From: Acidipropionibacterium timonense
GTDB lineage: Bacteria > Actinomycetota > Actinomycetes > Propionibacteriales > Propionibacteriaceae
Length of the DNA stretch: 64,000 nt
Direction of reading: 5' to 3'
Assembly (NCBI RefSeq): GCF_900605005.1
Contig: NZ_LR027558.1
Span: 1 to 64,000, forward strand
In this document: in pieces, positions 39,556-48,674 of the stretch
Layout: each line of letters begins with the position of its first letter
Position numbering within the stretch: the first letter of the stretch is position 1
The notes under the pieces: generated by a model
Database searches by the model: none
What the model saw: only the letters and a program-made list of their open reading frames with translations
What the model was told of the DNA's origin: nothing
Made by a program: the position numbers and the translations under genes

Positions 39556-39629
39556 GTCGGGAGAATCCCCGGAGCGGGACAATCCTCCCCTCCAGGGGAA
39601 CAATCCTCTCCTCAGGGGAATTTCCCGAC
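39556..39629. repeat. Copy A of a 74-75-bp palindromic element
   Basis: Outer 15-base arms (GTCGGGAGAATCCCC and its near complement at the right end) pair with two mismatches, and the core contains TCCAGGGGAACA. The same outer arms and core recur at 47261-47335 and 48601-48674. This copy lies between the clcA start and the hydroxyacid dehydrogenase start. Confidence 0.75.
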
Positions 39630-39654
39630 GCCTCGGGCGGCTAGCGTGGGCCCC

Positions 39655-40620
39655 ATGGCACGGATCATCGTCACCGCACCCCAACTCATGGCCGACGTCC
39701 TGGCCGAACTCCCCGGTCACGAGGTCGTCGGCGGCGACCACGCGATGTCCCGGGAGGAGCTCGCCGAGGCGATCGGCGACGCCGACGCCCTCTTGTCGAG
39801 TCTGTCCGACCCCCTCGACGCCGACCTGCTGTTCCGCGCCACCCGACTCAAGGTCATCGGCCAGTGCGCCGCCGGGTTCAACAACATCGACCTGGCCGCC
39901 GCCCACGAGCGCGGCATCGTCGTGACGACCACCCCCGGGGTCCTCCACGAGGCCACCGCCGACCTCGCCTTCGGCCTCATGCTCATGGTGACCCGCCGCC
40001 TCGGCGAGGCCGAGCGTCTCGTGCGCGCCCACACCCCCTGGCACTACGACCACACCTTCATGCTCGGCGCCGGCCTCCAGGGCGCCACCCTCGGCATCGT
40101 CGGACTCGGTCAGATCGGTGAGGCCATGGCCCGCCGCGGCGCCGCCTTCGGGATGGACGTCGTCTACACCGCCCGGCACGACAAGGACACCTCCGCCATC
40201 GACGCCACCAACCCGCGCACCGCCCCGACCCGACGCGTCGACCTGCCCGAGCTGCTGGCGACGAGCGACGTCGTCTCCCTGCACTGCCCCCTCACCGACG
40301 AGACCCGCCATCTCATCGACTCCGCCGCCCTGGCCGCCATGAAGCCCACCGCCTACCTCGTCAACACCGCGCGCGGGGCCTGCGTCGACGAGAAGGCGCT
40401 CGTCGACGCCCTCGAGGCCGGGCGGATCGCCGGGGCCGGGCTCGACGTCTACGAGGCCGAACCGACCATCGAGCCGCAGCTGTACGACATGGACAACGTC
40501 GTCCTGCTGCCCCACATCGGCTCGGCAACCCGCCAGACCCGCGCCGCCATGAGTCGTCTGGCGGCCCGGAACATCGCCAAGGTCCTCGCGGGCGAGCCTG
40601 CCGAGACCCCCGTGGGCTGA
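39655..40620 (+). CDS. D-isomer-specific 2-hydroxyacid dehydrogenase (glyoxylate/hydroxypyruvate reductase type)
   Basis: The 321-residue NAD(P)-dependent enzyme has the Rossmann motif GIVGLGQIGEAMARRGAAFGM near residue 145, the catalytic Arg in VNTARGACVD, the Glu in YEAEPTIEP and the His in LLPHIGSAT. This pattern fits glyoxylate or hydroxypyruvate reductases. The ATG at 39655 follows a TAGCGT -10 box by 7 bases, which suggests a leaderless mRNA. It stands alone between palindromic element A and glpA. Confidence 0.88.
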   Translation: MARIIVTAPQLMADVLAELPGHEVVGGDHAMSREELAEAIGDADALLSSLSDPLDADLLFRATRLKVIGQCAAGFNNIDLAAAHERGIVVTTTPGVLHEATADLAFGLMLMVTRRLGEAERLVRAHTPWHYDHTFMLGAGLQGATLGIVGLGQIGEAMARRGAAFGMDVVYTARHDKDTSAIDATNPRTAPTRRVDLPELLATSDVVSLHCPLTDETRHLIDSAALAAMKPTAYLVNTARGACVDEKALVDALEAGRIAGAGLDVYEAEPTIEPQLYDMDNVVLLPHIGSATRQTRAAMSRLAARNIAKVLAGEPAETPVG

Positions 40621-40657
40621 GCGTCCGGACATCCTCCTGCACCTTTGTGGCAGAGCC

Positions 40658-40694
40658 GTGCACGTCTGTTCCGGGGCGTGCACGAGGACGTGCA
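40658..40694 (+). promoter_or_regulatory. Cluster of GTGCAC boxes upstream of glpA
   Basis: The palindromic hexamer GTGCAC occurs at 40658-40663, 40678-40683 and 40689-40694, about 120-156 bases before the glpA start. Regular palindromic boxes in the 193-base spacer suggest a regulator of glycerol-3-phosphate respiration. I cannot name it. Confidence 0.45.
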
Positions 40695-40813
40695 CATTGG
40701 CGGAAACGTCTGGCCGGTCGTCGTACCCCTTCCGTACGCTGGAGTTCGTAACCTGGCAGTGACGCGGGCAGGGCCACCGAGGGCTCGAGCGGCGCACCCC
40801 GAAGGGAGCACGA

Positions 40814-42448
40814 ATGAGATCCATGGACGCGGACGTCGTCGTCATCGGTGGTGGTGCCACCGGGGCCGGCGTCGTCCGGGATGTTGCGATGCGCGGGTAC
40901 TCCGCGGTCCTGCTCGACAAGGCCGACCTCGGCCAGGGCACGACCGGTCGGTACCACGGCCTGCTCCACTCGGGCGGACGCTATGTCGTCTCCGACCCCG
41001 GCTCGGCCACCGAGTGCGCCGAGGAGAACGAGATCGTCACGAGGATCCACGCCGACGCCGTCGAGCGCACCGGCGGCCTCTTCGTCGTCACCCCCGAGGA
41101 CGACCTCGAGTTCTCCGACCGCTGGACGGCGGGCGCCACGGCGTCGAAGGTGCCCTTCGAGGAGATCTCCATCGGCGAGGCGCTGCGTCGCGAACCGCGC
41201 CTCAACCCCGGGATCAAGCGGGCGTTCGCCGTCCAGGACGGCACCGTCGACGGCTGGCAGATGGTCTGGGGTGCCGCCCACTCGGCCATCGACCACGGCG
41301 CGAAGATCCTCACCTACCACCGCGTCACCGAGATCATCCGGGAGGGTGACCAGGTGACCGCCGTCATCGCCCGCGGGCTCAAGGACGGCGAGGACGTCAC
41401 CATCAACACCCGGTTCGTCATCAACACCGCCGGCCCCTGGGCCGGACGGATCGCCGAGCTCGTCGGCTGTCACGACGTCGACGTCGTCGCCGGCCGCGGC
41501 ATCATGATCGCGATGAACCACCGCCTGGTGAACACCGTCGTCAACCGGTGCATCTACCCGGCCGACGGGGACATCCTCGTGCCGGTGCACACCGTGTCGA
41601 TCATCGGCACCACCGACGTCAAGGCCGACGATCCCGATCGTCTGGCGATCCCGCGCAACGAGGTCCAGCAGATGCTCGACTCCGGCGAGGCCCTGGTGCC
41701 CGGGTTCCGCGAGGCCCGCGCCGTGCACGCCTGGGCCGGCGCCCGTCCGCTGTTCAAGGACAAGCGGGTCTCGGCCACCGACACCCGCCACATGTCGCGC
41801 GGCATGAGCATCCTCGACCACGGCTCCCGCGACGGCGTCAAGGGCATCGTCTCGATCATCGGCGGCAAGCTCACGACCTACCGGCTCATGGCCAAGAACG
41901 TCGTCGACGTCATGGTCGAGCAGCTCGGTGAGGACCGTCCCTGCCGCACCGCCGACGAAGCCGTGCCCGGCTCCACCCCCGGCCACAACTACCTCATCAC
42001 GCACGCCCTGGGCGCCAACGAGGAGCGTCGGGCCGCGACCGGGCTGGTGCGCGGGGGAGACCCGAGGAAGGTCGAGTCGACCCCCAAGATCGACGACCAG
42101 ATCCTCTGCGAGTGCGAGCTCATGAGCCGCAAGGCCTTCACCGACCTGCTCGCCGACCAGCCCGACGCCACCCTCGACGACCTGCGTCGTCAGCTGCGGC
42201 TGGGCATGGGCCCGTGCCAGGGCGGGTTCTGCTCCATGCGCGCCACCGGCGTCGCCCTCGAGGAGGGTTCGATCGACGCCGAGCGGGCCACCGGACTGCT
42301 GCGGCTGTTCCTCAAGAACCGGTGGATCGGACTGTGGCCGATCCTCTACGGCGAGCAGGTGCGCCAGACCGCCCTCGACGACTGGATCTTCCAGGGGACC
42401 TTCGACGTCGAGCACCTTCCGGTCCCCGAGAGCGAGGTTGAACTGTGA
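40814..42448 (+). CDS. glpA: Anaerobic glycerol-3-phosphate dehydrogenase subunit A
   Basis: The 544-residue flavoprotein oxidises sn-glycerol 3-phosphate to dihydroxyacetone phosphate and passes electrons through GlpB/GlpC to the quinone pool. The N-terminal FAD motif VVIGGGATGAGVVRDVAMRG is at about residues 8-27. The C-terminal BFD-like iron-sulfur domain has Cys432, Cys434, Cys468 and Cys473, which distinguishes it from aerobic GlpD. GAAGGGAG precedes the ATG at 40814. It starts the glpABC operon. Confidence 0.96.
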   Translation: MRSMDADVVVIGGGATGAGVVRDVAMRGYSAVLLDKADLGQGTTGRYHGLLHSGGRYVVSDPGSATECAEENEIVTRIHADAVERTGGLFVVTPEDDLEFSDRWTAGATASKVPFEEISIGEALRREPRLNPGIKRAFAVQDGTVDGWQMVWGAAHSAIDHGAKILTYHRVTEIIREGDQVTAVIARGLKDGEDVTINTRFVINTAGPWAGRIAELVGCHDVDVVAGRGIMIAMNHRLVNTVVNRCIYPADGDILVPVHTVSIIGTTDVKADDPDRLAIPRNEVQQMLDSGEALVPGFREARAVHAWAGARPLFKDKRVSATDTRHMSRGMSILDHGSRDGVKGIVSIIGGKLTTYRLMAKNVVDVMVEQLGEDRPCRTADEAVPGSTPGHNYLITHALGANEERRAATGLVRGGDPRKVESTPKIDDQILCECELMSRKAFTDLLADQPDATLDDLRRQLRLGMGPCQGGFCSMRATGVALEEGSIDAERATGLLRLFLKNRWIGLWPILYGEQVRQTALDDWIFQGTFDVEHLPVPESEVEL

Positions 42449-43782
42449 CCGCCACCGCAGCACCCGTGTCCACCACCGCCGCCCGCGCGGCGGCCCCCCA
42501 CGTCGTCGTCATCGGGGCCGGTCTGGCCGGCCTCGTCACCGCCCTGCGGCTGCGTCGCGACGGAGCCCGCGTCACCCTGGTGACCAAGGGAGTCGGCGGC
42601 ATCCAGCTCGGCCAGGGCACCGTCGACCTCTTCGGGTACAGCCCCGAGCGCGTCGACCGGCCCTACGAGGCCATCGAGGCCTACGCCGCCACCCACCCCG
42701 AGCACCCCTACGCCAGGATCGGGGTCGACGCCGTCCGCGAGGGCGTCCGGTTCCTCCAGGAGGTCGCCGGGGAGGACCTCGTCGGCGGCACCGGCGAGGC
42801 CAACGTCCTCCTGCCGACCGCAGTGGGTGCAGCCCGCCCGACCGCGCTGGTGCCCGCGTCGATGAGGGCCGGTGCCCTCGTCGACGGCGCCCGGATCGTC
42901 ATCATCGGCGTCGCCCAGTACAAGGACTTCCACCCCGCCCTCATCGCCCAGAACCTCGAGCGCACCACCCTGCCGGGAGGCGGGCACGTCGCTGCCCGGG
43001 CGGTCATGGTCGACTTCGAGCCGCGCGAGGGCGAGTTCGACGCCACCGGGCTGACCTTGGCCCGATCCCTCGACGACCCCGCCACCCGGCGGACCTTCCT
43101 CGAGGGCCTCAAGGGTTTCGTCAACCCCGGCGAGGTCGTCGGTCTGCCCGCGGTCCTCGGCATCGACCACCACGACGAGGTCCTCGCGGACGCCCGCCGC
43201 ATCCTCGGCGCCGAGGTCTTCGAGATCGCCTCGCTGCCGCCCTGCGTGCCGGGTATGAGGCTCAACAACCTCCTCGTCAAGGCCGTCAAGGACGCCCGGG
43301 TCGACTTCATGCTCGGCTCCAAGGTCGTCGGGTCGACGGTCGGTGAGGACGGCCGCCTCGAGTCGGTCACCGTCCACACGACCGGCCATCCGCGCACCCT
43401 CAAGGCCGACGCCTTCGTCCTGGCCGGCGGCGGGTTCGAGTCCGGGGCCCTGCGACTGGACTCCCACGGACACGTCCACGAGACGATCCTCGACCTGCCG
43501 GTGAGGCTGCCCGACGGCGTCGACGAGGACCACCTCGTCCACGGGGAGTACTGGGGACCGGCACAGCCGCTCTTCCTCGTCGGCGTCGACGTCGACGAGG
43601 ACATGCGGGTGGTGTCCGAGGGCCGGCCCGTCCACGCCAACGTCCACGCCGCCGGAGGGGTCATCGCCGGGGCGACACGCTGGCAGGAGAAGACCGGGGA
43701 GGGCATCGCGCTCGGGTCGGCCGTCAAGGCCGCCGACGCCATCGCCGCCTCCCTGGGCGTCAACGCTGCGGAGAGGAACTGA
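42445..43782 (+). CDS. glpB: Anaerobic glycerol-3-phosphate dehydrogenase subunit B
   Basis: The 445-residue FAD/NAD-binding protein has the N-terminal dinucleotide motif VVIGAGLAGLVTALRLRRDGA at about residues 20-40 and a C-terminal FAD segment AAGGVIAGATRW. It links the GlpA dehydrogenase to membrane-bound GlpC. Its GTG start overlaps the glpA stop by four bases. Confidence 0.95.
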   Translation: MTATAAPVSTTAARAAAPHVVVIGAGLAGLVTALRLRRDGARVTLVTKGVGGIQLGQGTVDLFGYSPERVDRPYEAIEAYAATHPEHPYARIGVDAVREGVRFLQEVAGEDLVGGTGEANVLLPTAVGAARPTALVPASMRAGALVDGARIVIIGVAQYKDFHPALIAQNLERTTLPGGGHVAARAVMVDFEPREGEFDATGLTLARSLDDPATRRTFLEGLKGFVNPGEVVGLPAVLGIDHHDEVLADARRILGAEVFEIASLPPCVPGMRLNNLLVKAVKDARVDFMLGSKVVGSTVGEDGRLESVTVHTTGHPRTLKADAFVLAGGGFESGALRLDSHGHVHETILDLPVRLPDGVDEDHLVHGEYWGPAQPLFLVGVDVDEDMRVVSEGRPVHANVHAAGGVIAGATRWQEKTGEGIALGSAVKAADAIAASLGVNAAERN

Positions 43783-43784
43783 CC

Positions 43785-45035
43785 ATGGGTGTCATCGAGG
43801 AGACCTTCGCCGGGCACGAGGCCTCGCGTGCGTCACTGGACGCGTGCGTCAAGTGCACGATCTGCGAGACGATGTGTCCGGTCGCCAAGGCGACGCCGCT
43901 CTACACCGGGCCCAAGTACAACGGGCCCCAGGGCGAGCGATTCCGTGACGGCGCGTCCGTCGACCACTCCCTCGAGTGGTGCAACTTCTGTGGCATCTGC
44001 ACCCTGCACTGCCCGCAGGGGGTGAAGATCGCTGAGCTCAACGAGCAGGCTGCCGCCGTGATGAAGCACCAGAACGGGGTGCCGTTGCGTGACCGCCTCA
44101 TCCCGCTGACGACCCTCGAGGGCAAGGTGCTCTCGCCCATCGCCCCGCTGGCGAACTGGGGCCTGAGGCAGCGTCCTATCCGGATCGCCATCGAGAAGGT
44201 CATCAAGGTGCACCGGGACGCCCCGATGCCGACCGCGCACACCGAGACCCTCGCCAAGTGGATGCGCCACCACAAGCCCGCCAAGCCTGCCACCAGGGGA
44301 CCGGTCATCTTCTTCCAGGGATGTGCCGGAGGCTACTTCGAGACCGAGACCTCGAAGAAGTCCATCGAGGTGCTCGAGCACCTCGGCTACGAGGTGCACG
44401 TGCCCAAGCAGGGTTGTTGCGGCCTGGCCCAGCAGTCCAACGGGCTGTTCGAGGAGTCCACGAAGACCCTCCTCGACGTCTGCGACAAGATCATCGCCCA
44501 GGGCAAGGGGTTGCCGGTGGTGTCCTCCTCCGGCTCGTGCATCGGCATGATCAAGCACGAGGCGCACGAGATCATGGGGGTCGACGACCCGCGTCTGCAC
44601 GACGTGTCGGTGCGCTCCTACGACTTCTGCGAGTTCCTCATGGAGGAGTACCGCAACGGCGAGCTCGACGCCTCGCAGTTCCAGCCCCTCGAGCTCACGG
44701 TGCCGTACCACCAGCCCTGCCAGGTCAAGAGCCAGGGCATGGGGTTCCCGGCGGTGCAGCTCATGGAGCTCATCCCCGGGGTCAAGGTGCTCGAGTCGAA
44801 CGAGCCCTGCTGCGGCATCACCGGCACCTACGGCCTCAAGGCCGAGCGCTACGAGGTGGCGCAGAGGATCGGCGCCAAGGTCTTCGAGCACATGCGCGAG
44901 CACAACGAGGGGGTCGGGGTGTGTGACACCGAGACCTGTCGTTGGCAGATCGCCAAGTCCTCGGGAGTGAAGATCGTCCACCCGGTGTGGCTGCTGCACC
45001 AGTCGCTCGGGCTGTCGACCGACCTTCTCGACTGA
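43785..45035 (+). CDS. glpC: Anaerobic glycerol-3-phosphate dehydrogenase subunit C
   Basis: The 416-residue iron-sulfur subunit binds two [4Fe-4S] clusters through Cys21/24/27/31 and Cys66/69/72/76, and two CCG (cysteine-rich) domains follow, seen in CCGLAQQSNGLFEES and CCGITGTYGLK. It anchors GlpAB to the membrane and delivers electrons to menaquinone. It starts 2 bases after the glpB stop. A terminator follows at 45092-45115. Confidence 0.96.
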   Translation: MGVIEETFAGHEASRASLDACVKCTICETMCPVAKATPLYTGPKYNGPQGERFRDGASVDHSLEWCNFCGICTLHCPQGVKIAELNEQAAAVMKHQNGVPLRDRLIPLTTLEGKVLSPIAPLANWGLRQRPIRIAIEKVIKVHRDAPMPTAHTETLAKWMRHHKPAKPATRGPVIFFQGCAGGYFETETSKKSIEVLEHLGYEVHVPKQGCCGLAQQSNGLFEESTKTLLDVCDKIIAQGKGLPVVSSSGSCIGMIKHEAHEIMGVDDPRLHDVSVRSYDFCEFLMEEYRNGELDASQFQPLELTVPYHQPCQVKSQGMGFPAVQLMELIPGVKVLESNEPCCGITGTYGLKAERYEVAQRIGAKVFEHMREHNEGVGVCDTETCRWQIAKSSGVKIVHPVWLLHQSLGLSTDLLD

Positions 45036-45091
45036 GTCACCGGACCAGGCCGGGGTCTGCTGTGGGGGCGGGCCCCGGCCGCTGTGTGTCC

Positions 45092-45115
45092 GGGTGCCCT
45101 CCTTGGCGGGCACCC
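45092..45115 (+). terminator. Hairpin terminator of glpABC
   Basis: GGGTGCCC and GGGCACCC form a perfect 8-bp stem around an 8-base loop, 57 bases beyond the glpC stop. Confidence 0.7.
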
Positions 45116-45166
45116 CTCCGTGGCGGCTGCCGGCGGGGGAGTGGGTGGATTTCTGACCTGGGGGCT

Positions 45167-45186
45167 CGTGAAACGCGCTTTTCACG
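45167..45186 (-). terminator. Hairpin downstream of the dapC-like gene
   Basis: CGTGAAA and TTTCACG form a 7-bp stem with a 6-base loop, about 20 bases beyond the stop of the minus-strand aminotransferase gene. Confidence 0.55.
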
Positions 45187-45206
45187 TCCCGATCGGCCGT
45201 TCGGCG

Positions 45207-46463
45207 TCAGGAGTCCACTCGCGCCCGGGTCCGGGTGCCCAACTGGCGCAACCGCTCGGCGGCCTCCCGGGTCACCGAGGCCGACTTGCACTGGGCGAAC
45301 CGCACGAGCCCGCGCATCTGCGGGTTGACCAGGGTGAACGCCTGGACCGGGATGGCGACGACGCCGATCTCCCGCGCCATGTCCAGGCAGAACTCGAGCC
45401 CGTCCCGTCCGCCAGGGGGAGCGGCCACGGTGAAGTAGCCGGCGTCGGGGACGATGACCTCGAACCCGGCCTCACCCAGGGCGGCGACGATGAGGTCCCG
45501 GCGCTCCCGCAGGCCGTCACGCTGGGCCCGGAAGAAGGCGTCCGGCAGTCGCAGTCCCGCCGCGACGCCGTACTGGAAGGGAGCCCCGCCGGCGAAGGTG
45601 AGGTACTGCTTGACGGTGCGCACCGCCTCGATGAGCCTGGGCGAACCGGTGGCCCAACCGATCTTCCAGCCGGTCACCGAGAAGGTCTTGGCCGCCGAGG
45701 AGATCGTCATGACGGCGTCCTCGGCGCCGTCGAGGGTCGACATCGAGGTCGGCGCGGTGTTGAACCACAGGTGCTCGTAGACCTCGTCGGACAGGACGAC
45801 GGCGCGGTGCCGCACGGCGATGTCGACGATGCCCTGGAGGGTTCGGCGGTCCAGGACGGTGCCGGTGGGGTTGTGCGGGGAGTTGACGATGACCGCTCGG
45901 GTGCGCGGGCCGAAGGCGGCGTCGAGCTCGTCGAGGTCGAGGGCGAAGCGACGTCCTGCCACGCCATTGGCACCGTCCTGGAGCCGCAGCGGGACGCACA
46001 CCTGACGTGCCCCGGCCAGCCCGATGATCGCGGCGTAGGCGTCGTAGAAGGGGTCGATGGTGACGACCTCGTCGCCCGCCTCGAGCAGCGCCAGGAGGGA
46101 CGCCGCCATGGCCTCGGTGGCACCCATCGTCACCTGGACCTGGCTGTCGGGGTCGATGGTGCGCCCGTGGAACCGCTGCTCGTGCTCGGCGATGGCCTGA
46201 CGCAGGATCGGGACCCCGGCCAGTGGCGGGTACTGGTTGTGTCCGGCCTCGATGGCCTCCGTCGCGGCCCGGTGCACCTCGGCGGGGCCGGGGTCGTCCG
46301 GGAACCCCTGCCCGAGGTTGAGGGCCCCGGTCGACGCCGCCAGGGCGCTCATCCGGGTGAAGATCGTCGGGACGACCGAGCCCGACTCGTCGAGCAGTCC
46401 GGCCGCTCGAGCCGTGCGCAGCCAGGATCCGGGAGGGGTCTCGTGCATCTGGGTCACGCTCAC
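45207..46463 (-). CDS. dapC: Class I/II PLP aminotransferase, N-succinyldiaminopimelate aminotransferase-like
   Basis: The 418-residue fold type I aminotransferase closely follows the pattern of mycobacterial DapC: MSALAASTGALNLGQGFPD near residue 37, NSPHNPTGTV near 190, and the PLP lysine in SSAAKTFSVTGWKIGW near 250. DapC makes N-succinyl-LL-diaminopimelate for lysine and peptidoglycan synthesis. Methionine or kynurenine aminotransferase (YbdL type) is an alternative. GAGGTG lies ahead of the GTG at 46463; a GTG at 46457 is also possible. Confidence 0.82.
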   Translation of the reverse strand: MSVTQMHETPPGSWLRTARAAGLLDESGSVVPTIFTRMSALAASTGALNLGQGFPDDPGPAEVHRAATEAIEAGHNQYPPLAGVPILRQAIAEHEQRFHGRTIDPDSQVQVTMGATEAMAASLLALLEAGDEVVTIDPFYDAYAAIIGLAGARQVCVPLRLQDGANGVAGRRFALDLDELDAAFGPRTRAVIVNSPHNPTGTVLDRRTLQGIVDIAVRHRAVVLSDEVYEHLWFNTAPTSMSTLDGAEDAVMTISSAAKTFSVTGWKIGWATGSPRLIEAVRTVKQYLTFAGGAPFQYGVAAGLRLPDAFFRAQRDGLRERRDLIVAALGEAGFEVIVPDAGYFTVAAPPGGRDGLEFCLDMAREIGVVAIPVQAFTLVNPQMRGLVRFAQCKSASVTREAAERLRQLGTRTRARVDS

Positions 46464-46541
46464 AGTCTGGCACCTCGTTCTGGCAGGTGGAACGGGCCCG
46501 GGTCGGTCGGCGACGTGCGGAGGGGTGCGCGGAGGGGGAAC

Positions 46542-47216
46542 GCAGCCCGGTTCCCGGTCGAGTTGGCCTGGACCATCGACTCCTGCGAGGTCGGCGAGAT
46601 CGTCGCGCAGACCTTCAACGCCGCCTCGGTGTCCGTCCTCGTCGAGGGCGTCCCGGCCCACCCCATGTCGGCCAAGGGCGTGCTCGTCAACCCGGTGCTC
46701 GTCGCCCACGACCTCATCGCCGAGTTCGACCACACCCAGACCCCCGAGTGCACCGACGGCACCGATGGGTTCATCTGGGTCACCGACGTCGTCGCCAACG
46801 AGTCCCGGGCCCGGGTCGACATCGTCATTCGCGACCATGACCTGGCCCGCTTCGAGGAGCGCAAGGAGACGGTCCGTCAGGCGGCGCAGGTGGCGCGCGA
46901 GCGGCACCCGCGCGCCAAGGTCGAGGTGACGGTCGAGGATGTCTACGGCAACATCGCCGACGCCGTGACGGCGGACAATCGTGCCGGGGTCGACCTGCTC
47001 TTCACCGCCATGGACAACCTCGGCATCACCCCTCGTCCCACCGTGATGCGTGGCGGCACCGACGGGTCCTGGCTGTCACGTCAGGGCATCCTCACCCCGA
47101 ACTTCTTCACCGGCGGGATGAACTTCCACAGCTCGGCGGAGTTCCTGCCCCTGGGCTCCTTCCAGGCCAGCCACGACATGGTCCTCGAGCTGGTGCGGTT
47201 GGTCGCACTGGGCTGA
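46542..47216 (+). pseudogene. pepT: 5'-truncated peptidase T (pepT) remnant
   Basis: The 224 codons to the stop at 47216 match the C-terminal half of PepT tripeptidases in order: AWTIDSCEVGEIVAQTFNAAS, HPMSAKGVLVNPVLVAHDL, IRDHDLARFEERK, VMRGGTDGSWLS and the final FFTGGMNFHSSAEF. Full PepT is about 410 residues. The N-terminal half, with the first metal ligands and the catalytic residues, is absent, and nothing resembling it lies upstream. The frame is open without stops, and a GTG at 46515 could start it, so a shortened product is possible but should not be an active peptidase. Deletion of the 5' half beside dapC is the simplest explanation. Confidence 0.82.
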
Positions 47217-47260
47217 GGGGGCATCGCCGGGGCTCCGGGGAGGGGCGCCGGCCCAGAGGT

Positions 47261-47335
47261 GTCAGGGGAATCCCCCCCAGCGCGGGTTCGTTCCTCTCCA
47301 GGGGAACATGTCGTCGCTGGGGGGATTCTCCTGAC
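47261..47335. repeat. Copy B of the 75-bp palindromic element
   Basis: Outer arms of about 20 bases (GTCAGGGGAATCCCCCC and onward) pair with the right end, and the centre contains TCCAGGGGAACATG. It is close to the reverse complement of copy C (roughly 65 of 75 positions by eye) and lies 26 bases beyond the glycosyltransferase stop. Confidence 0.8.
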
Positions 47336-47361
47336 GCTGCGGGCACCGGGCGAGGGTCGTG

Positions 47362-48531
47362 TCAGCGGTAGAGGGCCTTGTCGAGCACCTTCTCGAGCCG
47401 GTCGACCGAGGCCTGGAGGCTGTAGCTGGTCGCCATGAGTTCGTGGGCGCGCGCGTGCCAGCGGGCCATGGTGGCCTCGTCGGCGTCACGGACCCGTTCG
47501 ATCCCGGTGACGAGCTGCTCGGGGTCGACACAGGCCCCCACCTCGTCGTCGCTGACGACGTCGCGGATGGGCACCTTGGCGTTCGAGACGACGGCGAGCC
47601 CGGCAGCCATGTAGTCGTACAGCTTGTTGGGGCTCATCCCCTTGTCGAAGACCGCCTGGGGGGACACCGTGTGCAGGCCGACGTCGCAGGCCTTGAGGAT
47701 CCGGACGAGCTCGGACTTGGGCACCTGGTCGTGGAAGGTGACGTTGGACAGACCCCGGCGGGCCACCTCGTCGACGGCCCACTGCTTGCGGGCCCCGGCG
47801 CCGACGAGAAGGAAGTTGACGTCGGGAAGCTGCTGTGCGGCGTCGACGATGAGGTCGAGCCCGACATAGTTGGCATGCGTGCCGGAGAAGACCGCGGTGA
47901 AGCCCTCGATGCCGTACTGGCGGCGCAGTTCCTCACGCGACTCGGCCACCTCGTACTCGGCCAGGTCTGCCCCGTTCGGCACGACGTTGACCTTGTCGAC
48001 ATTGATGCCGAGCTCGCGGAAGTGGTCCTCCCACCCCTTGGTGACGACGACGATCTGACGGGCATGCGCGTAGATGGTCCGCTCGAGCATGACGAGCACC
48101 CGGTGCAGGGTGGACCCCTCCGTGAGGGCCCCGCCGGAGACAAGGGACTCGGGCCACAGATCGCGGACCTCGACGACGAAGGGCTTGCGGCGTACCGCGG
48201 CGACCGCCATCGCGGCGGCCGGGGCGAGGATCTGCGGCGAGGAGGCGAAGATGACGTCGGCCGGACGCACGAGCGCCCGGGCACCTGCACCGGCGGCGAA
48301 GACCAGCCAGCCGAGCACCCGCTTGGCCCCGTTGCCCTCGTAGGAGGGGATGTGGACGAGGGTGTACCGGGGATCCTCGACGCTCATCCGCTCGCCGGAG
48401 GTGTGGTTGATGTCGGCGGCGAAGAAGTGCGGGGTCCAGCCCTTGAGGCGGCTGAACATGTCGAAGTTGCGGGTGATGCCGCCCGATCCCGGGGGGAACG
48501 CGTAGTGGTTGATGACCGTGACGCGGCGCAT
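47362..48531 (-). CDS. GT4-family glycosyltransferase
   Basis: The 389-residue protein has the GT-B fold pattern: an N-terminal acceptor domain with PPGSGGITRNFDMFSRL, a middle VVPNGADLAEYE, and a C-terminal donor-binding domain with FSGTHANYVGLDLIV and the EX7E-like region DKGMSPNKLYDYMAAGLAVVS. It probably transfers a nucleotide-activated sugar to a cell-surface glycan; donor and acceptor are unknown. GGAG precedes the ATG at 48531. It is a single gene flanked by inverted copies of the palindromic element, with no other glycan genes beside it. Confidence 0.88.
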   Translation of the reverse strand: MRRVTVINHYAFPPGSGGITRNFDMFSRLKGWTPHFFAADINHTSGERMSVEDPRYTLVHIPSYEGNGAKRVLGWLVFAAGAGARALVRPADVIFASSPQILAPAAAMAVAAVRRKPFVVEVRDLWPESLVSGGALTEGSTLHRVLVMLERTIYAHARQIVVVTKGWEDHFRELGINVDKVNVVPNGADLAEYEVAESREELRRQYGIEGFTAVFSGTHANYVGLDLIVDAAQQLPDVNFLLVGAGARKQWAVDEVARRGLSNVTFHDQVPKSELVRILKACDVGLHTVSPQAVFDKGMSPNKLYDYMAAGLAVVSNAKVPIRDVVSDDEVGACVDPEQLVTGIERVRDADEATMARWHARAHELMATSYSLQASVDRLEKVLDKALYR

Positions 48532-48600
48532 GAGGGCTCCTTCGGGTGGACGACGGGCCCAGCCTACCGAGGTGGCCGGGACGCGTGCCGGCCGACGTGT

Positions 48601-48674
48601 GTCAGGAAAATCCCCCCAGCGATGACATGTTCCCCTGGCGGGGAACGAACCCGCACTGAGGGGCATTTCCTGAC
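48601..48674. repeat. Copy C of the 75-bp palindromic element, inverted relative to copy B
   Basis: The sequence begins GTCAGGAAAATCCCCCCAGC and ends with a near-complementary arm; the core has TTCCCCTGGCGGGGAAC. Together with copy B it brackets the glycosyltransferase gene, 1,265 bases apart, in opposite orientations. Confidence 0.8.

Follow-up and report, generated by a model that had tools for sequence, protein, structure and literature searches.

Dispersed intergenic dyads and the DUF559-type gene they enclose in Acidipropionibacterium timonense and its relatives

Three similar palindromes lie between genes in a 64,000-nucleotide stretch of the Acidipropionibacterium timonense genome (contig NZ_LR027558.1, positions 1 to 64,000), referred to as the window, and they raise the question of whether such elements are mobile repeats, binding sites of a protein or structured RNAs. 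The initial annotation, which was made from the sequence of the window, had described them as a three-copy intergenic family and had named each of these options. All three elements are present at the positions where they had been placed, with lengths of 74, 75 and 74 bp, and are listed here together with the gene that separates two of them.

39556..39629, no strand assigned: dyad of family A, 74 bp, profile score 81.5 bits
39583..39602, no strand assigned: palindrome in the center of this copy, TCCTCCCC-TCCA-GGGGAACA
47261..47335, no strand assigned: dyad of family A, 75 bp, profile score 72.2 bits
47362..48531, minus strand: glycosyltransferase gene with a family A dyad on either side, used as anchor for locating orthologous sites in congeners
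48601..48674, no strand assigned: dyad of family A, 74 bp, profile score 83.7 bits

The dyads of the window and of the genome

The first copy resides between two divergent genes, a ClC-type channel gene and a D-2-hydroxyacid dehydrogenase-like gene, the second between a peptidase-like gene and the glycosyltransferase gene, which converge, and the third in a tandem intergenic region 5' of the same glycosyltransferase gene, in front of which the congeners G005 and G006 carry a dyad of a different family (family B, see below). Searches with a profile built from 17 copies extended the family, termed family A, to 43 or more full-length copies across the genome of 2.8 Mb. Each copy was matched on both strands, and the number is a lower bound since the scoring covered 150 of the 1385 candidates from the first look. 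The copies stand far above chance, with 48.7 bits for the lowest of the 86 matches and 18 bits for the next one. Of these copies, 38 are exactly 74 bp long, and the intergenic location described for the window holds for all 43, with 22 copies in tandem, 13 in convergent and 8 in divergent context as defined by a simple codon-usage gene caller. Between tandem genes, most copies are closer to the 3' end of the upstream gene than to the start of the downstream one.

Made symmetric, the family A consensus reads approximately GTCRGGAAAWTCCCCTGAGCGCGGGATTGTTCCCCTS, with the reverse complement of this sequence as its second half, and is organized into an outer block, about six loosely constrained bases in the middle of each arm and a central palindrome, where the core motifs TCCCC and GGGGA show almost no variation among 38 copies. 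The median pairwise identity amounts to 72% and the total information to 92 bits, and the GTC is preceded by T in 33 and by C in 9 of the 43 copies. When 478 kb surrounding the origin, about one sixth of the genome, were scanned with a weight matrix, every copy scored 56–101 bits and everything else at most 25 bits, and neither decayed or partial copies nor isolated half-sites above 8 bits outside of the elements were found in this region.

The copies are unevenly distributed, with 16 of the 43 sites no more than 160 kb away from dnaA (binomial P 1.2e-5), among them one just 3' of dnaA in the dnaA-dnaN interval (C1:2677315-2677388). Adjacent pairs separated by less than 3 kb number 8 compared to 1.9 expected (P 0.0005), and most of them enclose ordinary genes. 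Two further observations concern the same contig, an intergenic array at C1:2563081-2563395 in which a 34-bp unit (GTCAGGGTCGTCCGAGCCCTG...) is repeated in tandem about four times and a run of N spanning a few hundred bases from about C1:157736 in the assembly.

Related families and the enclosed gene

The strict family A pattern had no match in 85k GTDB genomes or in IMG/VR, sets from which the A. timonense genome itself may be absent, and a search of 197 other Propionibacteriaceae genomes with stricter filters did not reveal the family. It is also absent from all eight congeners, which all contain a different dyad of 75 bp, family B, that in turn is missing in A. timonense. The B-bearing genomes seem closely related to the skin commensal Cutibacterium acnes, the ribosomal protein bS6 of G005 being almost identical to chain 8crx_F of the C. 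acnes ribosome and the bS6 of the window less so. Family B follows the plan of family A at a fixed length, with an arm consisting of GTGGYRATCGGGTTNCTGA and ten free bases leading to a TGCCACC-TnA-GGTGGCA core, which is mirrored on the other side; its mid-arm sequence is near-random yet constant in length, and its 49 distinct dyads hold a total information of 61 bits. Matches of the B profile in three other genera were partial, look like coding sequence and were rejected. A 72-bp family, E, first noticed as a weak match to the A profile, comprises 16 dyads in G011 and G037 of a second genus, whereas family C, with a length of about 78 bp (GGGTGGAnATCTGAC...GTCAGATnTCCACCC), is found in A. timonense itself at C1:104547, 105611, 153389 and 176714. 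In G011, a family E dyad is located just downstream of dnaA (C1:1501). No B site was found near dnaA of the congeners within the 2.5–3.5 kb examined, the B copies clustering on one side of the gene at distances from tens of kb up to 190 kb. Separately, we observed in the related MAGs L086:3056, L087:12028 and L136:2366 a dyad family of about 66 bp, TTAAGTAGGYG...CATGG..CCATG...CRCCTACTTAA, which could belong to the same kind of element, and in a Propionibacteriales MAG three palindromes of about 60 bp (CGCGCCGAGATTGCAGTTCTGGTCG...) inside 12 kb (L099:6148, 9900 and 17483).

The conservation in relatives takes the form of families with the same plan and another consensus that have some positions in common. 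Together with the 43 copies in the genome, it runs counter to the outcome that the initial annotation had named as a refutation, namely a lack of further copies and of conservation in relatives. Among 169 orthologs of the origin region, five gene ends carry a family A dyad in A. timonense and a family B dyad on the same side of the ortholog in G005 (Fisher p=0.0013), compared to 0.95 expected from permutations within strata of intergenic length and gene end (p=0.0007), these five gene ends representing four intergenic spots. In the equivalent comparison with G003 two positions are shared, which is not significant (p=0.18). No remnants of B were found at A. timonense sites orthologous to B-only sites. 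Across the species that contain family B, orthologous dyads align without gaps, whereas their flanks do not, and they have an identity of 95% where positions are constrained and of 69% where they are not, which amounts to purifying selection on individual copies.

In families A, B, C and E, dyads that are about 1.1–1.25 kb apart enclose a gene of about 300 codons that is of one homologous type. The family A unit (C1:2743791-2744992), which is outside the window, contains a gene encoding 308 amino acids between dyads at C1:2743791 and 2744919, whose homolog in G011 is enclosed by E dyads, as is the one in G037. Pairs of B dyads at a spacing of 1.1–1.25 kb hold the same type of gene in G003 (two units), G005 and G006, and the homologs in G001, G007 and G008 are likewise flanked by B dyads, whereas the C dyads at C1:104547 and 105611 surround a second DUF559-type homolog of A. 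timonense. Most dyads, including the three of the window, stand alone without an enclosed DUF559-type gene; a homolog in G003 (L225) is devoid of flanking dyads and one gene copy in G005 has dyads only on its left side. Among the units of families A, B and E that were examined, each contains a single gene between its dyads, and no AbiEii toxin gene was found in any of them. In G003, G005 and G006, the units are located between the same neighboring dyads, which fits vertical inheritance. Orthologs of the gene show dN/dS ratios of 0.07–0.18, and no homologs of the protein were found in plasmids, phages or IMG/VR. The initial annotation had proposed a search for a cognate transposase or RAYT gene; a RAYT was not found, and the candidate for a cognate gene is instead this dyad-bracketed gene of a putative DUF559/Vsr-type nuclease.

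Arm symmetry and the predicted protein

The elements had been described as nearly completely self-complementary. This description is an overstatement, as the average copy pairs at about 24 of its 35 arm positions. In 38 copies of family A, the arms pair at 24.3 of 35 positions within a copy and at 24.6 of 35 positions between arms of different copies, indicating that base pairing as such is not maintained. The equivalent values are 19.9 and 20.1 of 37 positions in the 49 copies of family B, whose arms do not covary either, and 25.6 versus 23.9 in the 16 copies of family E, where there is a slight excess within copies. Inside the half-element of family A, the strongest dependences concern adjacent bases, such as GT or CC at positions 29–30, rather than paired positions, and no covarying stem was found. 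With arms that do not covary, the symmetry of family A looks like that of a site recognized by a protein rather than of a maintained hairpin. These features point to double-stranded DNA that would be contacted by a symmetric protein assembly and, as far as can be judged from sequence, they support the earlier suggestion of a protein-binding element.

A candidate for such a protein is encoded by the enclosed gene. The C-terminal third of the protein of the family A unit (P0001) matches DUF559 above and REase_MTES_1575 below the Pfam cut-off, and its profile matches include 3hrl and, weakly, 3r3p. Within this protein type, E186, D217, E228, H235 and E242 do not vary in 14 homologs. In the AlphaFold2 model of P0001 (mean pLDDT 90.7, pTM 0.84), residues 183–286 resemble the homing endonuclease I-Bth0305I (3r3p_A; Z 10.5, rmsd 2.8, 96 aligned), 3hrl, which is a DUF559 structure (Z 10.3), and Vsr (1cw0; Z 9.2). 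Residues 1–178 were matched to the AbiEi antitoxin 6y8q_D with a Z of 10.3, but an rmsd of 6.3 over 161 residues, and to Rv2827c (Z 7.0), and Foldseek paired the protein with 6y8q_A (E 1.6e-4). AbiEi-family antitoxins bind inverted repeats at their own promoter (PMC7319586). P0001 and its homologs are thus predicted to combine a DNA-binding AbiEi-like half with a Vsr/homing-endonuclease-like (DUF559) nuclease half, with the fold alone being no proof of activity.

A putative two-part system, its alternatives and its known counterparts

The dyad families and the same type of gene in relatives point to an undescribed system consisting of a repeat and an enzyme. We find it rather likely that the dyads belong to a two-part system, in which they serve as scattered recognition sites and probably also as its non-autonomous mobile copies, and whose second part is the AbiEi-like/Vsr-like enzyme. 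In such a system, the enzyme gene located between two complete dyads forms a unit of about 1.2 kb, and the protein would bind the symmetric 72–78-bp site as a dimer or higher oligomer via its N-terminal half, with the blocks at fixed spacing within the dyad serving as contacts. The nuclease half would cut or nick at the dyad, and repair might now and then copy dyads, or the gene together with a dyad, to new places, where they would be inherited vertically and retained by selection, possibly due to a benefit for the host. Enzyme and sites would have diverged together to result in species-specific consensus sequences, partly at the same positions. With a confidence that falls slightly short of an even chance, we further propose that a fusion of AbiEi and Vsr-like nuclease recognizes and spreads the 72–78-bp dyads in the absence of a transposase and so constitutes a new class of domesticated or selfish repeats, which is transmitted vertically and in which the sequence of the sites has changed between species with a number of positions kept.

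A recent duplication of the gene is documented in one congener. In G005, the left dyads and the gene are present in two inverted copies, 915 kb apart and 99.3% identical over 1306 bp, and the gene was thus copied recently, together with a dyad. The identity ends shortly past the stop codon without including the right dyad, so that the mobile unit is not simply dyad-gene-dyad. Within family A, some copies that are far apart have 10–13 of 16 loosely constrained bases in common and are surrounded by unrelated flanks, which suggests copying. The strong conservation of single orthologous dyads suggests a host function beyond mobility. Together with the G003 homolog that is devoid of dyads, with target-site duplications and a clean empty site that were looked for and not found, and with a sharing of positions between A and B that comes down to four to five spots, it argues against a two-part mobile system.

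A function in the host is central to the most serious alternative, in which the dyads would be chromosomal sites for a chromosome-organizing protein or global regulator, whereas the DUF559-type protein would only repress itself via the flanking dyads, in analogy to the autoregulation of AbiEi, with mobility being marginal. We keep this alternative, which we regard as unlikely, because of the described concentration of sites near dnaA and the presence of an A and an E site just 3' of this gene. It would also account for the purifying selection on orthologous copies and for positions partly common to different species, but the 92 bits of family A and 61 bits of family B by far exceed what a protein would need to locate its targets within 2.8 Mb, autoregulation does not explain the dyads on the 3' side of the gene, and the B sites are displaced to one side of dnaA in the congeners.

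The elements could also be ordinary MITEs moved by a conventional transposase encoded elsewhere in the genome, with the DUF559-type gene as cargo or chance neighbor, as would agree with dispersed palindromes with conserved ends and with the loosely constrained bases common to distant copies. We consider this improbable, since the flanks show no excess of matches over 2–9 bp that would reveal the target-site duplications that the initial annotation proposed to look for, truncated or decayed copies are lacking in the scanned region, old orthologous copies are under selection and the same type of gene is enclosed in four dyad families of two genera. The search for RAYT, the Y1 tyrosine transposase (PF01797), was negative in all 20 genomes investigated, including A. 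timonense and its eight congeners, and positive in control genomes. From the initial proposal of a MITE- or REP-like family, the REP-like dispersion in 43 intergenic copies is thus retained, whereas neither target-site duplications nor a RAYT were found.

Finally, we reject structured RNAs, such as transcript hairpins acting as terminators or mRNA stabilizers, as very improbable: despite strong predicted folds of the window elements (-46 to -60 kcal/mol) and the proximity of most tandem-pair copies to the 3' end of the upstream gene, there are no compensatory changes between the arms of 38 A and 49 B copies or inside the A half, conservation concerns the sequence instead of pairing, every gene orientation is represented with 8 of 43 A sites between divergent genes, no T run follows the hairpin and Rfam has no match within the window.

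The favored two-part system has counterparts among known elements, although we found nothing relevant on DUF559 in conjunction with palindromes or on dyad repeats in the open-access literature. AbiEi-family antitoxins (PDB 6y8q, Rv2827c) share the N-terminal fold, but here a toxin gene is absent, a nuclease-like domain is fused and the sites are dispersed by the tens. The EDxHD/Vsr-like homing endonucleases (I-Bth0305I, PDB 3r3p) share the fold of the C-terminal third and the linkage of a predicted nuclease gene to a long specific DNA site, but the gene described here is not part of an intron or intein and instead lies between two complete dyads, leaving its own site uninterrupted. CGTC-tagged REPs (PMC3733652), too, are palindromes found between genes and frequently on the 3' side of a gene, for which no dedicated transposase is known; most A copies start with TGTC or CGTC. 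These REPs contain an 8–9-bp stem and a CCA tail, whereas the A half lacks a covarying stem and its consensus a CCA tail, and for the dyads a candidate cognate gene was found; Actinobacteria are not mentioned in the text of that paper.

The closest resemblance is to REPIN/RAYT systems, which feature dispersed extragenic dyads, an enzyme gene beside the same repeats, one enzyme per repeat flavor and vertical inheritance (PMC3116915, PMC8049555). Similarly, two inverted units here form one dispersed element (43 A, 49 distinct B and 16 E), the enzyme gene is flanked by the same repeats and each flavor has its own gene, with signs of vertical inheritance. The gene, however, is not a RAYT, its product being of the DUF559/Vsr type instead of a Y1 tyrosine transposase, no single half-elements were found beside the doublets in the 478 kb scanned and the hairpin itself shows no sign of being maintained. 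Since the Y1 transposase and the half-elements are absent, the dyads are not members of the REPIN/RAYT group, and by analogy they are best read as a REPIN/RAYT-like system with a different enzyme. If correct, this would assign a role to members of DUF559, a nuclease family of unknown function, the pairs of enzyme and site in families A, B, C and E would offer a natural setting to study how a protein changes its specificity jointly with dozens of dispersed sites, and the REPIN/RAYT way of life would have arisen with an unrelated enzyme.
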